55,215 nt of DNA from contig JAUICI010000009.1 in the NCBI GenBank assembly GCA_030427935.1, positions 1 through 55,215 on the forward strand, given 5' to 3'. Position numbers and translations under genes: made by a program. The notes beneath the pieces are model-generated. The model was not told where the DNA came from. It saw only the letters and a list, made by a program, of their open reading frames with translations, and made no database searches. The first letter of the stretch is position 1. Every line of letters begins with the position of its first letter. This document shows, piece after piece, positions 2,574-34,740 of this stretch. The stretch comes from Bacteroidia bacterium. GTDB taxonomy: Bacteria; Bacteroidota; Bacteroidia; Flavobacteriales_D; Crocinitomicaceae.

Positions 2574-3608
2574 TTATAGACTCCAAACGTCATGTTCAAT
2601 CATTCTAATCTCATTGGTAATCTTCTCAGACTCCAAAAGAGCATCTACACCAACTCTGTAAGAATCGATCTTTCTATCGTAAACGTTAGAAGATCTATAG
2701 ATCACAGAATTAAATTGTCTCTTCCAGAACAAGTCATCGTATGAAAACCATCTGGAGTCATTTTGGTCATTATAAACGTAGTAGTTTTGAAAAACGTACC
2801 TACACTCTGGGAAATACAACCAAAACAATTCGTTATAACCTTGTATTTGACCAGACTTCGATTTCTTATGAGTTACAGGAGCAATTCCAATAATTCTCAC
2901 ATCCATCACCGATCTTTCTTTGTCAAAAAACCAATCTTCCTTCAATCGATATTGAACAATATCCTGTGATTGCCAAAAATTATATGGACAAGGCATAGTT
3001 ACTACTTCTTGATCACCATTAGCATTAGTTCTTACTGAGTCTTCCCCCCACTGATCAGTATATGGAATTGGATCACACAATTCCTCTTCTCCAATGAACG
3101 ATGATAATCTTTCTCCGAAGAAAAGAGAATCAGTAACTGTTTTACCAGGAGGAGGCACGACAGGGTATTTGAACGAATCTCCATCCTTAATAGTAAACTG
3201 AACAGGATGTTCCGGAGAATAAACTGTCAAGTTCCCATTAATAATATTGGACAGGATCACTGTCCACAGGGACCATCTTCTCTGATGTTTAATCCAATCA
3301 TAACTATACTTATCATCAGCAATGATCTTATCCAAAGGATAATACATCGAATGATTAATCTTCTCTCTTAAATCAATATATCTCCACACTCTCTTACTCC
3401 AAACTGCGTCCGCTTCTCTTACGTGTTCCCACGGGATTAACTTCTTCGTTGGAATATGCTCAGGAACATAGACTCCATCCAAAACACCAGGCGCTGGATT
3501 CGGAACTGGTCCAAGCATTTCTCCATTATTGACTCCACCTTGGGATAAAGCGAAGTTAAAACTCAACACACATAAAGATAAAGTGACTTTTGAAAGAAAA
3601 TTTCTCAT
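2574..3608 (-). CDS. gldN: Type IX secretion / gliding protein GldN
   Basis: GldN (PorN) is a periplasmic protein that forms the T9SS ring with the lipoprotein GldK beneath the outer membrane and contacts GldM. The 344-residue product starts with a signal peptide (MRNFLSKVTLSLCVLSFNFALSQ, cleaved near 22). It has the family's pattern of W/Y-rich blocks, including VWRYIDLREKINH, WSLWTVI and ELFWLYFPECR. It is the last gene of the porP-gldK-gldL-gldM-gldN run, 22 bases after gldM, and is followed by a terminator. Gene order and sequence together make the call strong. Confidence 0.93.
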   Translation of the reverse strand: MRNFLSKVTLSLCVLSFNFALSQGGVNNGEMLGPVPNPAPGVLDGVYVPEHIPTKKLIPWEHVREADAVWSKRVWRYIDLREKINHSMYYPLDKIIADDKYSYDWIKHQRRWSLWTVILSNIINGNLTVYSPEHPVQFTIKDGDSFKYPVVPPPGKTVTDSLFFGERLSSFIGEEELCDPIPYTDQWGEDSVRTNANGDQEVVTMPCPYNFWQSQDIVQYRLKEDWFFDKERSVMDVRIIGIAPVTHKKSKSGQIQGYNELFWLYFPECRYVFQNYYVYNDQNDSRWFSYDDLFWKRQFNSVIYRSSNVYDRKIDSYRVGVDALLESEKITNEIRMIEHDVWSL

Positions 3609-3630
3609 GACTTATCTTTTAAATTATTAA

Positions 3631-5343
3631 TTATTGTACTGTAATTGTAGACATTAAAGGTTTAATCAATCCACTAGGATATCTTACCCATGCTTTTACC
3701 GCCACAACACCTCCTTTAGGACATGCACTAACCAATCTTGAAGCTTGAGAAGCATTTGCACCAGATCCTTTTACTGGAGCTCTAGCACCTTCAACTCTAA
3801 CTTCCCATCTCGTAATAGTAAAAGTAGCTTTCAAAGGTATAGATTCATCGTATCTTGCAAAAAGCCTAGAAATACCAGCTCTCAACTCATTTTTAGATGC
3901 TGATTGACCATTTGTTTTCTTACCAACATAAATACTCGGAGAAGGCATCTGTCTTACATCAAAATCAAATTTACCAAGAGCTGCCGACGATCCATCTGGT
4001 GCAATCCCCGTAATCGAGATCGAAGCTTTTCTCACCCCTTTCGAAGGTGAAGCAATCCACTCTTTACCAGATCTCTTAATAGATCCACCAGACATACTCA
4101 ATCTATAATCGGTATAACCTGTTACCGCTCCAATCACTTTATTTTGATATCCTCTATACAATGTAAACATTTCTGGAAGTGAAACTACACCAGATGGAGA
4201 TCCAACCGTGTATGGGAACTTCCAATCCAATGGTTGAAGAGACCCATCTTTTTTCTTCACTTTCAAAACACCTTTCAATGTATCTGAAGCAGCCGCTCTA
4301 AATCTTAGGTATCCCTTACCTTCTTTTACATCTTTCACTTCTTTATCCGCTCCTTCTTCTTGGTATGTTACGATTGGCTGATTGTAAGAATCGTAAGCAG
4401 CCATAAAGACTTGTACTTCAACACTATCACCAGCGTTATAGTAGTTTGAAGGCGAATAAGCTAAAGCCTGTACTTTGTTGAAAGAATAATCCGACCCACC
4501 TACTTTAGTTCTAATATGAGCTAAAGCATTTGATTCAGCTGTTCTGATATCTTGCTCTAAAGAAGATAATTGTGCAAGTGCTGCTACAACTGGAGCATGG
4601 TCAAACGTTCTACCCACCCAGTGGATATCTTTGTTTTCACCTCCATGTGTATCTGCCAACTCAACCTTAGTTAACTGAAGGTATATTGCCTTAATCACTG
4701 CTTGATCTTCTTTGTTAACTGTACTCAACATATCTTCAGACCATTCTCCTTCTCCTGGAAGTTTAGAAGCGTCCAATGTATTCTTTTTGTATGTTGCCAA
4801 CTCTGTAACAAGATTATCTCTATATGCTTTCAAAGACTCCCACAATTCCATCCCTCTTGCTCCTGAATCTGGTGCTTTGATGTCTCCACCAGCTCCAATC
4901 ATTACAAGCATCGGAATATCGTAGTTATCCTTTGCATCAATTGCTGCACAGTCGTAAACCACATTACCAGCTTCGTCTTCTAATTTCACTTTTGAAATAT
5001 CCGAACCTACCTTTTCAATCAACTCATCCTTAATAGCATGAATCAATTCAATTTGAGTAGCTGTGATTTCTCTAATTTTTGCAGCCTTATCCAGCCATCC
5101 TTGAGCAGCTTCTGCTCTGGCTGTTTCTCCTTTACTTTCTGCGTCAGTTTTCACTAACTCCAAATCCGCGTAAGCTTCATTTCCTCTAGCCATAATAGAT
5201 CTTGTACCCGCCTGGATGTTGTTATCCATAGATACAAAGGCTTCAAGAATAGATTTGGATACGTTCAATGCTAGAAGAGCGGTAAGTACTAGGTACATCA
5301 TACCGATCATCTTCTGTCTCGGGGTTTCTTTTCCTCCTGCCAT
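3631..5343 (-). CDS. gldM: Type IX secretion motor protein GldM
   Basis: GldM (PorM) crosses the inner membrane once and extends through the periplasm as a dimer, passing energy from the GldL proton channel to GldK/N. The product of 570 residues begins with the characteristic MAGGKETPRQKMIGMMYLVL, whose hydrophobic stretch (about 12-30) is the single membrane helix that bundles with GldL. A helical region (about 40-230) and then beta-rich domains follow, ending in the C-terminal domain that binds the ring. It lies between gldL and gldN, 72 bases after gldL. Confidence 0.95.
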   Translation of the reverse strand: MAGGKETPRQKMIGMMYLVLTALLALNVSKSILEAFVSMDNNIQAGTRSIMARGNEAYADLELVKTDAESKGETARAEAAQGWLDKAAKIREITATQIELIHAIKDELIEKVGSDISKVKLEDEAGNVVYDCAAIDAKDNYDIPMLVMIGAGGDIKAPDSGARGMELWESLKAYRDNLVTELATYKKNTLDASKLPGEGEWSEDMLSTVNKEDQAVIKAIYLQLTKVELADTHGGENKDIHWVGRTFDHAPVVAALAQLSSLEQDIRTAESNALAHIRTKVGGSDYSFNKVQALAYSPSNYYNAGDSVEVQVFMAAYDSYNQPIVTYQEEGADKEVKDVKEGKGYLRFRAAASDTLKGVLKVKKKDGSLQPLDWKFPYTVGSPSGVVSLPEMFTLYRGYQNKVIGAVTGYTDYRLSMSGGSIKRSGKEWIASPSKGVRKASISITGIAPDGSSAALGKFDFDVRQMPSPSIYVGKKTNGQSASKNELRAGISRLFARYDESIPLKATFTITRWEVRVEGARAPVKGSGANASQASRLVSACPKGGVVAVKAWVRYPSGLIKPLMSTITVQ

Positions 5344-30644: not shown

Positions 30645-31742
30645 TTATACGATCTTCTTTATTTCTTCCAGAATTAGATCAGTTGCATGATCCAACTCCA
30701 TTGCTTTAATATTTTTTGAAAGTTCTTTTTGTTTGTTTTCGTCCTTTGTCAAACTTAAAATCTCGGCTCCCAGAGCTGATTCCGCCTCCACATCTTTCAC
30801 CATGATTGCGGCATTATTTTTCGTTAAGGCCAGTGCATTTTTGGTTTGATGATCTTCTGCCACATTTGGAGAAGGAACGAGAATCACTGGTTTTCCGATG
30901 ATTGTTAATTCTGAAATACTTATGGCTCCTGCTCGACTCACGATATAATCGGCACAAGCATAAGCTTCATCCATATTGTAGATGAAATCGGACAAATAAA
31001 TATTCGGGTGATCAGGAACTAATTTCTTATAATCTTCGATATAGAATTTCCCGCATTGCCAGATAATCTGAATATCTTCTTTCAGCAAATCCTCTTTTGC
31101 GGCGAGGATGCTTTTATTGATTGTTCGTGCACCTAAACTTCCTCCAATAACCAGAAGTGTTTTTTTAGTGGAATCCAGATTGAAAGCCTTGAATCCATTT
31201 TCTCTTTTCCCCTCGATGGTCACCACTTCTTTTCTAACCGGGTTTCCTGTCATTACGATCTTATCTGCAGGGAAGAATTTTTCCATTCCTTCATAGGCCA
31301 CACAAATCTTCTTCACTTTTTTTGCTAGCCATTTATTGGTCTTTCCTGCGAAGGAATTTTGTTCCTGAATTAAAGTTGGAATACCAAGTGAATTTGCTGC
31401 TCTCAGCGTTGGTGCCGAAGCATAACCTCCGACTCCAATCACAACATCAGGATCAAATTTTTTGATGATTTTCTTCGCCATGGAAACCGCCTTCATCACC
31501 ATGAAAGGAAACTTAATTAAGTCTAATGACAGTTTTCTGGATAAGCCTCGAATAGGGAGCCCAATAATTTCATATCCTGCTTTCGGCACTTTCTCCATCT
31601 CCATTTTTCCTTCGGCACCAATAAACAAGAACTCAGCATCCGGATATTCTTCTTTTATCCTATTTGCTATTGCAATTGCAGGGAAAATATGTCCCCCAGT
31701 TCCTCCACCTGATATAATTACTTTACGCAAGTTCGAGCTCAT
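30645..31742 (-). CDS. murG: UDP-GlcNAc:lipid I N-acetylglucosaminyltransferase MurG
   Basis: MurG is the GT-B transferase that makes lipid II from lipid I on the inner face of the membrane. The 365-residue product carries the N-terminal Gly loop SGGGTGGHIFPAIAIA (11-26), a second Gly-rich motif GGSLGARTIN, and the UDP-GlcNAc site DYIVSRAGAISISEL with ...EDHQTKNAL. It overlaps the end of ftsW by 20 bases and lies one base from murC. Confidence 0.96.
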   Translation of the reverse strand: MSSNLRKVIISGGGTGGHIFPAIAIANRIKEEYPDAEFLFIGAEGKMEMEKVPKAGYEIIGLPIRGLSRKLSLDLIKFPFMVMKAVSMAKKIIKKFDPDVVIGVGGYASAPTLRAANSLGIPTLIQEQNSFAGKTNKWLAKKVKKICVAYEGMEKFFPADKIVMTGNPVRKEVVTIEGKRENGFKAFNLDSTKKTLLVIGGSLGARTINKSILAAKEDLLKEDIQIIWQCGKFYIEDYKKLVPDHPNIYLSDFIYNMDEAYACADYIVSRAGAISISELTIIGKPVILVPSPNVAEDHQTKNALALTKNNAAIMVKDVEAESALGAEILSLTKDENKQKELSKNIKAMELDHATDLILEEIKKIV

Positions 31743-32910
31743 TTTCGTCAGATTTTACTTTATTGGTTTCTTCTTCTGAAGTTGAATATTTTCTTGAGAT
31801 ACTTAGAATCATTCCTAGAGATACACAAGTCATGACCATGGATGAACCACCCATTCCAAGTAAAGGCATATTTTGACCTGTCACCGGGAAAATTCCAGTA
31901 CAAACTCCCATGTTTACAATGGCTTGAAACATGAAAATCATTCCAAGCCCGATAATGAGATAGGTTTCCACATATTTGTCCGATTTCATGGCAATTCGAA
32001 TCATCCTAAAAAACATGATTAGATAAACCATAATAATGACCATAGCCATGAGCGGACCAAATTCTTCTACAAAAACAGCGAAATAGAAATCCGCATAAGC
32101 TTCCGCGATATAATGTTTTAGCTCTCCATTTCCAGGTCCTTTCCCAAATAACGGAGCAGATGCAATTGCTTTCCGTGCATTGACGACTTGGGGATTTTCT
32201 TTTGCGGTAACATTCGAATCATCGATTCTATTCGCCATTCTATTATACCAAGTATGAGCTCTTGGGAAAATTCCAGCATCTGTGGCAAGCTCTACTGAAA
32301 TTAACATACCTAAACCGACGACCAGAGCTCCAACCACGGCTAAAATATGCTTGATCCGAGCACCAGCTAGAAATAGAATTCCGGTACAAATAGTAAAGAG
32401 CATGGCTGCCGTTGAAAAGTTATCTCGAACGATTAAAACCATGGTAAGAACTATAGGTCCCATTGCTGGCCAGAAGCCTTCTTTAAAGTCTTTGATCTTA
32501 TTTTTCTTAACCGCCAGAATTTGCGCCAAATAAAGCACCAAGGCAACTTTGGCCAAATCGGAAGTTTGAAAGGTAAATGGCAAAAATGGGATCTTAAGCC
32601 ATCTTCCGGCATCATTTACTCGTACTCCAAAAAAGAAGGTAAAAATGAGTAAACCGATTGCCAGATAAAATCCGAATTTGGACAATTTTATAAAATACTT
32701 CGGGTTGATTCGGTGTACCTGATACATGGCAAACAAGCCTAAAATCAGATAAAAAATATGCTTGAATATGTATTTGATCGGACTTCCTCCTTCCGTTTTA
32801 ACCAAAACCGGAATAAAGCTGAATACCGTAATAATCGAAACAATCGATAAAAACAGTGTCAGGATCCAGATCACCTTATCACCCTCTAGATATTTTAATA
32901 GTTTTTGCAC
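31723..32910 (-). CDS. ftsW: Lipid II polymerase FtsW
   Basis: FtsW is the SEDS-family glycosyltransferase that polymerises septal glycan with its partner FtsI. The 395-residue product has about ten membrane helices. Its SEDS motifs include DAGRWLKIPFLPFTFQTSDLAK and, near the end, FPVTGQNMPLLGMGGSS. It begins with GTG at 32908-32910, one base after the stop of the preceding small gene. No ATG is available before the first membrane helix. Confidence 0.94.
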   Translation of the reverse strand: MQKLLKYLEGDKVIWILTLFLSIVSIITVFSFIPVLVKTEGGSPIKYIFKHIFYLILGLFAMYQVHRINPKYFIKLSKFGFYLAIGLLIFTFFFGVRVNDAGRWLKIPFLPFTFQTSDLAKVALVLYLAQILAVKKNKIKDFKEGFWPAMGPIVLTMVLIVRDNFSTAAMLFTICTGILFLAGARIKHILAVVGALVVGLGMLISVELATDAGIFPRAHTWYNRMANRIDDSNVTAKENPQVVNARKAIASAPLFGKGPGNGELKHYIAEAYADFYFAVFVEEFGPLMAMVIIMVYLIMFFRMIRIAMKSDKYVETYLIIGLGMIFMFQAIVNMGVCTGIFPVTGQNMPLLGMGGSSMVMTCVSLGMILSISRKYSTSEEETNKVKSDENELELA

Positions 32911-32911
32911 T

Positions 32912-33391
32912 TTATGCGCACACTTGTTTTACAATATTTCTGAATTCCTCTCCTCTTTCTTTCAAGGACATTTCCGATTTATTCGCTGGAGCGTAAATCA
33001 CGTAGGTATTCTCCTCTAAATTCTCCCAAGCAAACTCTACAGCTTCCTTCAGAGAACTCTTGTTGACAGCACCCTTACCCAATGAGTGAAAAGGGTTTTC
33101 CTCTCCAACATTGATGATCCAGTCCAAGCGATTCAGTATTGGACCTAAAATTCCATGAAAGTTTATTTCTGAATAATCCATTTCCGTTATCCAGATCATT
33201 CGTTCTTTGACCGCCGAAATGGCTTCCAAAGCAGACTCCACATCCATTGACCCAGCATTGTTCAGGACTACTTTCCCATCCTTATCCCACACCACTTCTA
33301 GTTGGTTAGGAACATTTCGGAAATTGGAAAGTTGACTCTGACGCGTCTGAATCAGTTGTTCGTATTCTTTTGTTTCAAATTTCTTTTCCAT
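32912..33391 (-). CDS. Stand-alone MurD C-terminal-domain-like protein
   Basis: This 159-residue soluble protein lies between murD (8 bases) and ftsW (1 base). It resembles domain 3 of the neighbouring MurD. Residues 21-69 align without gaps to MurD 302-350, with 15 identities in 49 (LSNFRNVPNQLE against LSDFQNVEHRLE). Residues 112-157 match MurD 401-446 with one short gap (EAV, then PA...S, then ERGEEFRNIVKQV against EDRGNQFKAAVRAL). The ligand residues of MurD are gone: HR is NQ, NDSKATN is NNAGSMD, SPACASFD is APANKSEM. No P-loop or central domain is present. I infer a non-catalytic paralogue, perhaps regulating MurD or linking it to FtsW; the function is unknown. Confidence 0.8.
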   Translation of the reverse strand: MEKKFETKEYEQLIQTRQSQLSNFRNVPNQLEVVWDKDGKVVLNNAGSMDVESALEAISAVKERMIWITEMDYSEINFHGILGPILNRLDWIINVGEENPFHSLGKGAVNKSSLKEAVEFAWENLEENTYVIYAPANKSEMSLKERGEEFRNIVKQVCA

Positions 33392-33399
33392 AGTTCAAT

Positions 33400-34740
33400 T
33401 TAAAGAGCTCTAACAGCTGCCTTAAACTGGTTACCACGGTCTTCAAAATTTTCAAAAAGATCAAAACTTGCACATGCTGGAGAAAGAAGAACTGTTTCCC
33501 CTTTTTCCGCTATTTGGTAACCATAAGCAACAGCCTCAGTAGCTGATTCTGTTTCAACAATCGTATCAACAATCCCACTAAACGCGTCGAGAATTTTCTC
33601 ATTATCTTTTCCCAAACAAATGATCGCACTTACTTTTTCTGCTACCATTTCCTCAAGAGCTGAATAATCGTTCCCTTTATCGACTCCACCTACTATCCAT
33701 ACGGTTTTGTTTTCCATGCTTTCCAAAGCATACCAAGTTGAGTTTACATTTGTGGCTTTGGAGTCATTTACAAATCCAATTCCATGTATACTCGCTACAA
33801 ATTCCAGTCTGTGTTCCACATTCTGGAAGTCCGAAAGTGATTCTCTCACACTTTCTTTTCTGATTTCTAATATTCTTCCGGCTATCCCACTGGCCAAAGA
33901 ATTTTGTGTGTTGTGGCTACCTTTCAGAGCCAAATCATAAATAGACATGTTTAATTGATCGTTTATATTGATTGTTATTTGTTTATCTTGTTTATAGCCA
34001 GACATTCCTTTCGTTTCCGTAAGGCTGAATGGATGCATATTTGTTTTGAGGTCGAGTGCCTCCACTTTCCTTCGGATAACTTCATCATCATAATTGTAGA
34101 TGAAGTGGCAATTTTCGTCCAGGTTTTGAGTGATTCTCAATTTGGAATCTGCGTATAGTTCAAAGTCATTTTCATAGCGATCCAAATGGTCAGGCGTAAT
34201 ATTCATCAGCACACTTATAAATGGCTTTGTTTTATACATTCCATCTAGCTGAAAAGAGCTTAATTCAATGACGAAATAGTCGTGATCCGACTGGGCTAAT
34301 TTCCCAGCGAAACTATCTCCAACATTTCCACACAAAACCGCATCCAAGCCGCCTTTTTTCATAATGTGGTAGATCAGACTTGCTGTTGTCGTCTTTCCAT
34401 TTGATCCTGTTACGCAAACCAATTTTCCGGAAGTAAACTGAGCCGCAAATTCGATTTCAGAAATTACAGGAACCTTATTGGAAATTGCTTTTTGAATGAG
34501 TTCCACTTTCTCTGGAATTCCAGGAGATTTTACTATGCAATCCGAAGCTAAAATTCGATCGAAATCATGCCCTCCTTCTTCATACTGAATTTGCTCCTCA
34601 TCCAAAACCGACTTGAATTTTGGTTTGATTGAGGAAAAATCAGATACAAAGACATTGAACCCATGTTTCTTCGCAAGCTGAGCAGCACCTACGCCACTTT
34701 CTCCAGCTCCAATGATCGATATGTTTAATTTGTCATTCAA
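33400..34740 (-). CDS. murD: UDP-N-acetylmuramoylalanine--D-glutamate ligase MurD
   Basis: MurD adds D-glutamate to UDP-MurNAc-L-Ala. The 446-residue protein is complete: the nucleotide-binding start IIGAGESGVGAAQLAK, the ATP loop GSNGKTTT (112-119), the metal-binding His185 in NITPDHLDRY, Lys200 (the carbamylated-lysine position), and a C-terminal domain with EHRLEF, NDSKATN (325-331) and SPACASFD (420-427). It starts with TTG at 34738-34740 directly after the mraY stop; an out-of-frame ATG lies four bases on. Its C-terminal domain has a free-standing relative in the next gene. Confidence 0.95.
   Translation of the reverse strand: MNDKLNISIIGAGESGVGAAQLAKKHGFNVFVSDFSSIKPKFKSVLDEEQIQYEEGGHDFDRILASDCIVKSPGIPEKVELIQKAISNKVPVISEIEFAAQFTSGKLVCVTGSNGKTTTASLIYHIMKKGGLDAVLCGNVGDSFAGKLAQSDHDYFVIELSSFQLDGMYKTKPFISVLMNITPDHLDRYENDFELYADSKLRITQNLDENCHFIYNYDDEVIRRKVEALDLKTNMHPFSLTETKGMSGYKQDKQITININDQLNMSIYDLALKGSHNTQNSLASGIAGRILEIRKESVRESLSDFQNVEHRLEFVASIHGIGFVNDSKATNVNSTWYALESMENKTVWIVGGVDKGNDYSALEEMVAEKVSAIICLGKDNEKILDAFSGIVDTIVETESATEAVAYGYQIAEKGETVLLSPACASFDLFENFEDRGNQFKAAVRAL

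Follow-up and report, generated by a model that had tools for sequence, protein, structure and literature searches.

Among the described systems closest to the locus reported here, MurT-GatD is an enzyme of which MurT forms part, as PDB titles also state. In MurD of E. coli, Lys348, Thr321, Ser415 and Phe422 contact D-Glu, and domain 3 in isolation gives good NMR spectra (PMC4652230), which indicates that this domain folds alone. What coordinates the Mur ligases of the cytoplasm with the wall polymerases of the membrane is still an open question. Proposals include physical Mur complexes (reviewed in PMC4929429) and Mur complexes held by MurG or MreB (PMC4929429, PMC6420597), and in mycobacteria the Mur synthetases were reported, from protein-fragment complementation, to interact with FtsW and not with each other (PMC3605390).

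We analysed a stretch of 55,215 nucleotides (hereafter, the window) from a Bacteroidia bacterium assigned to the Crocinitomicaceae (assembly GCA_030427935.1, contig JAUICI010000009.1). Its gene row, named by reading translations, with profiles run for murD and ftsW, is of the dcw type: mraZ, a methyltransferase, a small membrane protein, a penicillin-binding protein, murE, mraY and murD are followed by a free-standing gene, and then by ftsW, murG, murC, ftsQ, ftsA and ftsZ (Table 1). The free gene starts with ATG, runs for 159 codons and occupies exactly positions 32912-33391, with 8 bases between it and murD and 1 base between it and ftsW; these coordinates and gaps had been given in a preliminary description of the DNA and were borne out, with the minus strand now added.

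Table 1. Positions of the free-standing gene, its neighbours and the altered motifs within the window
Feature	Position	Strand	Evidence
Free-standing MurD domain-3-like gene, 159 aa	32912..33391	minus	ORF, profile, BLASTP, AF2, Foldseek
murD, all three domains, domain-3 catalytic residues intact	33400..34740	minus	profiles, residue table
Domain 3 of the neighbouring MurD, residues 302-446, homologous part	33403..33837	minus	BLASTP
ftsW, start 1 base past the end of the free gene	31723..32910	minus	profiles
N-terminal helix, residues 7-22, LLxAR-like with recurrent Arg	33326..33373	minus	both models, alignments
Lost motif, NQ for MurD His301-Arg302 (E. coli numbering without Met1)	33302..33307	minus	alignment
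Lost motif, NNAGSMD for MurD NDSKATN (Asp317, Lys319, Thr321)	33242..33262	minus	alignment
Lost D-Glu loop, EMDYSEI for MurD GGVDKGN; Ser74 at the Lys348 place	33164..33184	minus	alignment
Altered loop, APANKSEM for MurD SPACASFD, 3-residue gap	32969..32992	minus	BLASTP, alignment

The window protein is a homologue of MurD domain 3 and has the domain-3 fold. The NCBIfam murD profile matches its residues 19-155 (E 1.8e-11) at 43.8 bits, against a profile cut-off of 211.95; the match spans positions 296-440 of the 441-position profile alone and the P-loop central domain is missing, so that the protein is not a three-domain MurD. BLASTP against the neighbouring MurD gave 34/145 identities (E 3e-10), and a hand count on that alignment returned the same 15 identities, between residues 21-69 and MurD 302-350, that the preliminary description had reported. 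All 19 homologues in our A1 alignment match murD, and no other NCBIfam family, at E <= 0.01. These 19 have no Pfam or NCBIfam model of their own: the general murD model matches them and, for 15 of the 19, so does Pfam Mur_ligase_C, which did not detect the window copy. A first AlphaFold2 (AF2) model of the window protein, built from 52 alignment rows, reached a pLDDT of 83.3; Foldseek placed MurD structures at ranks 1-33 (best E 7.1e-9), and a second aligner, VIA, returned Z of 16.0-18.9 for MurD and at most 12.7 for MurT, MurE, MurC and others, MurT being the next solved structures after MurD (12.6-12.7 versus 16-18.9). Because 43 of the rows behind this model were MurD, we built a second from nine free-standing copies (alignment A7), with no MurD row: its pLDDT was 81.6, and MurD again took Foldseek ranks 1-30 (best E 1.2e-7). 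Profile and structure searches thus agree with the earlier proposal of a free-standing MurD domain 3 between murD and ftsW, and neither of the outcomes named there as refuting it, an unrelated fold or other profiles on top, was seen, since MurD tops both. Chance similarity was ruled out by the profile and BLASTP E values (1.8e-11 and 3e-10) and the 19/19 matches in A1, and a MurC/E/F-type domain by murD being the sole NCBIfam match and by the lower placing of other Mur ligases in the structure searches. The N-terminal 20 residues form a helix in both models, at low to moderate confidence; Arg17 within it is invariant across the nine free rows of A7, and the same motif occurs in alignments A3 and A4.

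Of the 13 families sampled in the window's order (labelled f1, f2 and so on below), 8 have free genes of this kind between murD and ftsW, one or two per genome; the count includes f1, whose drifted copies were found in the gap itself. The check for orthologues in this slot suggested by the preliminary description has turned up free genes order-wide. Counting one locus per genome, the gap gene was present in 55 of 81 genomes of the order versus 0 of 33 class-mates, where 55/81 is not a prevalence because the loci came from search rankings and hand-picked regions. We also searched 299 evenly sampled genomes of the order with the 19-row A1 profile, whose matches include MurD, were not each inspected and miss strongly drifted f1 copies. 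There were two or more matches per genome in 34/39 f3 and three in 8/8 f4; f8 had three in 3/4 and f10 two in 3/3; two or three were found in 2/2 f5, 1/2 f2 and 1/1 f11, one in 6/6 f13, and one or none in nearly all f1 and f9. A phylum-wide sample of 296 genomes, searched with the same profile (which misses drifted copies), gave at most one match outside the order, among the matches listed, except in six genomes: in G400, G431, G515 and G570 the second matches were weak and fell in other, long proteins (open frames of 821-855 aa), and G322 and G493 also show two matches each. Among the matches examined in this sample, no free copy was found outside the order. The gap itself was inspected in the 33 class-mates. 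Extra matches in two f1 genomes (G017, G024) were rejected as of the same weak kind, and that in G240 as a MurD match in two pieces.

Of 80 named loci, 77 were scored (all but L148, L152 and L163); separately from these, the gap of f12 (L230) went unscored. The free gene occupies a complete murD-ftsW gap in seven named loci; in L163, the eighth carrier, it is cut by the end of the contig. All eight carriers (L091, L094, L100, L101, L115, L123, L150 and L163) are MAGs, their assemblies being titled Flavobacteriales, Bacteroidetes or, once (L163), Chitinophaga pinensis. In the taxonomy used here, the Flavobacteriaceae seem to fall outside the window's order, because the MurDs of genus g75 (f17, another order of the same class) share 73-76% identity with the MurD of a named Flavobacterium (L140).

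The distance between murD and ftsW falls into three groups: short gaps without an ORF of at least 125 aa, gaps of about 460-750 bp with one ORF, and gaps of about 1010-1100 bp with two. The exceptions are G122 (511 bp, gene interrupted), G082 (812 bp, copy A broken), G040 (226 bp) and genus g53. The 226-bp gap of G040, the sole f6 genome examined (L192), contains a 65-aa ORF that may be a remnant or unrelated; the 194-bp gap of G006 holds no recognisable remnant of its genus-mate's ORF. In f1 the gap ORF has often drifted beyond the reach of the profile, but its length stays at 133-159 aa. In profile-profile comparison, eleven f1 gap ORFs (A4) matched the A1 family with a probability of 98.1 (E 1.2e-13), and without L012 and L029, which are recognisable alone, the nine remaining rows still gave 96.6 (E 6e-10) against A1 and 96.0 (E 4.2e-9) against A3, an f3-type profile; the drifted ORFs share an N-terminal LLxAR helix. 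A second copy, with TIHKxKKS near its N-terminus, sits behind the first in f2, f4 and f8, and the second copy of f5 is of a different, barely recognisable kind. Two of these f5 second gap ORFs (L011:2526-2963 and L019:498-932; 145-146 aa) gave domain-3 matches of 16 and 35 bits.

Residue numbers were checked against E. coli K-12 MurD, and the numbering of the literature, followed here, leaves out Met1. The D-Glu lysine, Lys348, is present in 51/51 MurDs and in 0/60 aligned free copies, or 0/50 without the 10 most drifted f1 rows, for which this column is unreliable; the 60 rows are 45 tree rows plus 15 more, near-duplicates included. The GGxDKG loop around the lysine is also gone, its second Gly being kept in 1 of the 43 free copies of the four groups tabulated. 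Because the free protein lacks domains 1 and 2 as well as this lysine, catalysis by it is excluded. Other residues invariant in MurD have fared unevenly: among the 60 free copies, Asp317 is kept in 45, Thr321 in 38, Arg302 in 35 and Lys319 in 29. In 22 copies, which we call group A (f3, f10, f11, L091, L163 and the first copies of f2 and f8), Arg302, Asn316, Asp317, Ser318, Lys319 and Thr321 are kept in 22/22, a retention that is partly by choice, as the group was assembled by family after the sequences had been seen and is not a clade on the domain-3 tree. In the five f4 first copies tabulated, Arg302 and Lys319 are gone and Asn316, Asp317, Ser318 and Thr321 are kept; most of these residues are lost in the four f5 copies, in the window's genus and, where alignable, in the drifted f1 copies, with Arg302 and Lys319 gone from the window's genus and all four f5 copies. 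The D-Glu lysine is thus gone throughout the free family, and the other domain-3 residues are gone in some lineages only.

The window copy has Gln, Asn and Gly at the places of Arg302, Asp317 and Lys319 and Ser at that of Lys348. The preliminary description had held that everything MurD uses in this domain to bind ATP and D-Glu is replaced: the changes of HR to NQ, of NDSKATN to NNAGSMD and of the lysine to Ser agree with this, but the first Asn of NDSKATN remains, as do the C-terminal RG pair and the Ser of SPACAS, which is kept in the window and is Pro in its genus-mate. At the other extreme, L163:5523-5990 is the least changed free copy seen, reading IVGGVNDKSDY where MurD has IVGGVDKGNDY; it may lie near the first duplicate or be a separate, recent one.

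The free protein is under purifying selection in most of the lineages compared and is not a relic. In 16 locus pairs, chosen by hand, we made 20 free-gene comparisons, 12 with measurable dS and 8 saturated. The dN/dS of the free gene was 0.034-0.157 in 10 of the 12 measurable comparisons, MurD and FtsW in the same pairs ranging from 0.016 to 0.132 where measurable; ten of the 12 were tested, and dS exceeded dN in all (10/10; Z 3.09-5.77, with approximate site counts). Even a strongly drifted f1 pair (L022/L182) gave a free-gene dN/dS of 0.057. The two remaining comparisons, both in the L100/L115/L123 group, gave 0.38 and 0.46, with MurD and FtsW also raised there (0.16-0.25). The window and its genus-mate, a pair saturated at synonymous sites, differ by no indel over 159 codons and by 50/21/84 substitutions at codon positions 1/2/3. 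Two genes are broken or misassembled: the free gene of G122 (L056:1504-2004) is split into 72 and 87 aa, two examined genus-mates having it whole, and in the 812-bp gap of G082 (L054) the first copy is broken into a 68-aa head and a tail in another frame, the second being intact, which reflects either loss in progress or an assembly error.

That the free gene arose by a tandem duplication of the neighbouring MurD, as had been proposed, is not supported as written, since free copies of other genomes match the window protein better than MurD does. Among 59 relatives, its five best matches outside the genus are free copies from other families (168-201 aa, E 1.4e-11 to 1.2e-7), and the best MurD of any genome follows by a small margin at 2.3e-7, its own MurD at 5.8e-6. 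A tree of domain 3 (56 hand-picked loci, with the MurD rows L046, L047, L048, L050 and L052 dropped since the HR motif was not found) separates the 45 free from the 51 MurD copies by a single branch, with a support of 79 (not starred); 0/500 label shuffles matched the free/MurD split, and the branch leading to the window copy is very long. AU tests rejected own-genome duplication for three f3 loci (p 0.0005) and gave no rejection for L091 (p 0.22), L163 (p 0.59) or the window's genus (p 0.55, with its long branch), for which last the case against local duplication comes from best matches and synteny. From the sequences, the free genes appear to form an older, order-wide family, of which the copy in the window's own genus is a probable member, and a single origin of the family is likely.

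In a species tree from MurD domains 1-2 and FtsW (111 rows, with f16, f17 and named loci thinned by hand), the order plus six named loci formed a supported group of 87 rows, of which 61 carry the gene and 26, with the interrupted G122 scored among them, lack it, and 14 changes of state were needed for the free gene. Early presence followed by repeated loss is the simplest account, and because it was lost many times the gene is dispensable. The carrier L091 falls outside the order's group, among four rows without the gene, so that the origin may predate the order or a second origin may have occurred in L091's line.

Position speaks to the partner of the free protein. Among 62 loci, of which 55 come from genomes of the order and 7 are named loci, 56 have the end of the last free copy at -13 to +18 bp from ftsW; on the murD side, the first copy starts <=57 bp behind murD in 55/62, and spacing alone does not single out ftsW, because the murD side is about as tight. 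With spacing tight on both sides, genus g53 is the telling case: in G090, G102 and G157, murD is separated from the free gene by one or two other genes, and the free gene remains -13, 5 and 3 bp, respectively, from ftsW. This rearrangement is probably one event. G107 likewise has about 2 kb between murD and the free gene; in G145 a different gene precedes the free one, which lies 5 bp from ftsW. The intervening gene pairs of g53 (L221:2436-3488 and 3606-4490; L223:2415-3197 and 3200-4015) look lipoprotein- or membrane-like by eye and share a GFLQKRKYxKGY stretch; an NCBIfam search with these four genes found no convincing family. Across 48 genomes, protein distances of the free gene correlate with those of FtsW at r 0.64-0.68 and of MurD at 0.54-0.57, which is only a hint because the pairs are not independent. 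Taken together, gene context leans towards FtsW over MurD as the partner: of the two roles raised in the preliminary description, modulation of MurD and a tie to FtsW, g53 points to the second, and spacing does not decide. Linkage to ftsW within an operon can also persist for transcription alone. A MurD-FtsW fusion was sought as a Rosetta-stone clue and none was found among eight long MurD frames outside the window's family, three of which (L231, L233, L238) have no ftsW match in the stretch covered.

We favour, at a probability of roughly 0.42, the reading that the free protein is a non-catalytic adaptor or regulator tying the state of a Mur ligase to FtsW, the partner being suggested by gene context. 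The product would be made together with FtsW and would act through binding, not catalysis. Its domain-3 surface would recognise a Mur ligase or the nucleotide-bound state of one, a surface that in the best-kept copies would include the residues that face the nucleotide in MurD, and another surface, or the N-terminal helix, would act at FtsW, so that precursor synthesis would be matched with septal wall synthesis. In lineages like that of the window, where nucleotide-face residues are largely gone, a protein-binding role alone might be left. A binding role at FtsW is favoured because isolated domain 3 folds, Mur synthetases were reported to interact with FtsW in mycobacteria and Mur complexes have been proposed; against the adaptor count the repeated loss, the raised dN/dS in L100/L115/L123 and the broken copies in G122 and G082.

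The strongest competing explanation, though we consider it rather unlikely, is a trans-acting regulator of MurD alone, in which the free domain docks on domains 1-2 and blocks D-Glu uptake, taking the place of, or working against, MurD's own mobile domain 3. Movement of domain 3 gates D-Glu binding in E. coli MurD (PMC4652230), the free gene usually lies directly behind murD, and a lid of this kind fits a family in which Lys348 is gone in 60/60 while Arg302, Asp317, Lys319 and Thr321 are kept in the 22/22 copies of group A. However, the gene is kept where Arg302 and Lys319 are lost (the window's genus, 4/4 f5 copies, 5/5 f4 first copies), in g53 it has parted from murD and not from ftsW, and its distances track FtsW slightly more than MurD.

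A role as a sensor of ADP/ATP, UDP-MurNAc-Ala or another small molecule, or some other new binding activity, through which the state of the precursor pool would be signalled, seems to us improbable. The nucleotide of MurD sits between domains 2 and 3, and because of this domain 3 alone would bind it weakly. The same group A residues (Arg302, Asp317, Lys319, Thr321) speak for a sensor, as does the proximity of Lys319 to UMA and ADP in closed MurD (PMC4652230), but Arg302 and Lys319 are gone from several groups in which the gene persists.

Less probable again is a coupling role, in which the amount of FtsW would be set by translation through the ORF and the ORF's product would be of little weight. 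The close approach to ftsW (-13 to +18 bp in 56/62 loci) and the 133-159 aa ORF that holds the slot in f1 despite strong sequence drift would be expected of such a coupling device; yet the amino acid sequence is under selection, even in the f1 pair L022/L182 (dN/dS 0.057), the family profile is still recognisable in drifted f1, and in species that lack the gene ftsW follows murD closely. Finally, that the gene is a decaying, functionless relic of an old duplication, as repeated loss, the broken copies in G122 and G082 and the dN/dS of 0.38 and 0.46 in one group might suggest, is very improbable, being largely refuted by dN/dS of 0.034-0.157 in 10/12 measurable comparisons, by an open frame and slot kept in 8/13 sampled families, and by two distinct copies side by side in f2, f4, f5 and f8.

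The evidence as a whole suggests that the machinery which builds the wall has a non-catalytic partner not described before. A more detailed version of the adaptor reading, itself doubtful, would derive it from MurD's mobile lid: such a pseudo-ligase would, in its best-kept members, read the nucleotide-bound state of a Mur ligase, take up no D-Glu and signal to FtsW, later lineages keeping the docking part only. If true, it would be a direct physical tie of precursor synthesis to septal wall synthesis, order-wide and lost many times. A natural non-catalytic MurD lid beside ftsW offers a concrete molecule with which to test a tie between Mur ligases and wall polymerases; its repeated natural loss supplies matched species with and without it, and the loss of Lys348 with partial retention elsewhere amounts to a natural dissection of the functions of one domain.

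A search of open-licence PMC literature, by title and abstract start, found no description of such a protein, and the family, well supported and wide, is apparently unreported. Non-catalytic paralogues are known as a kind; what is new is a free-standing MurD lid, under selection, beside ftsW. In Acinetobacter baumannii, MigC is likewise a separate protein that interacts with MurD (PMC12208494), but MigC is a COG0523 protein and not a Mur-ligase domain. Some structural likeness, low in the Foldseek lists, extends to a Mur-type subunit of the plastid RNA polymerase, which differs in belonging to an unrelated pathway and organism and in not being a lone domain 3; we take its chains (8ras_Q, 8r6s_Q) to be the MurE-like PAP11. 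MurT of the lipid II amidotransferase MurT-GatD is a Mur-ligase relative with a C-terminal domain of the same fold, but it is a multi-domain chain, whereas the free protein is one domain. Closest of all is MurD, with which the free gene shares sequence family, fold and place in the dcw cluster, and from which its product differs in having neither domains 1 and 2, nor the D-Glu lysine, nor the GGxDKG loop.
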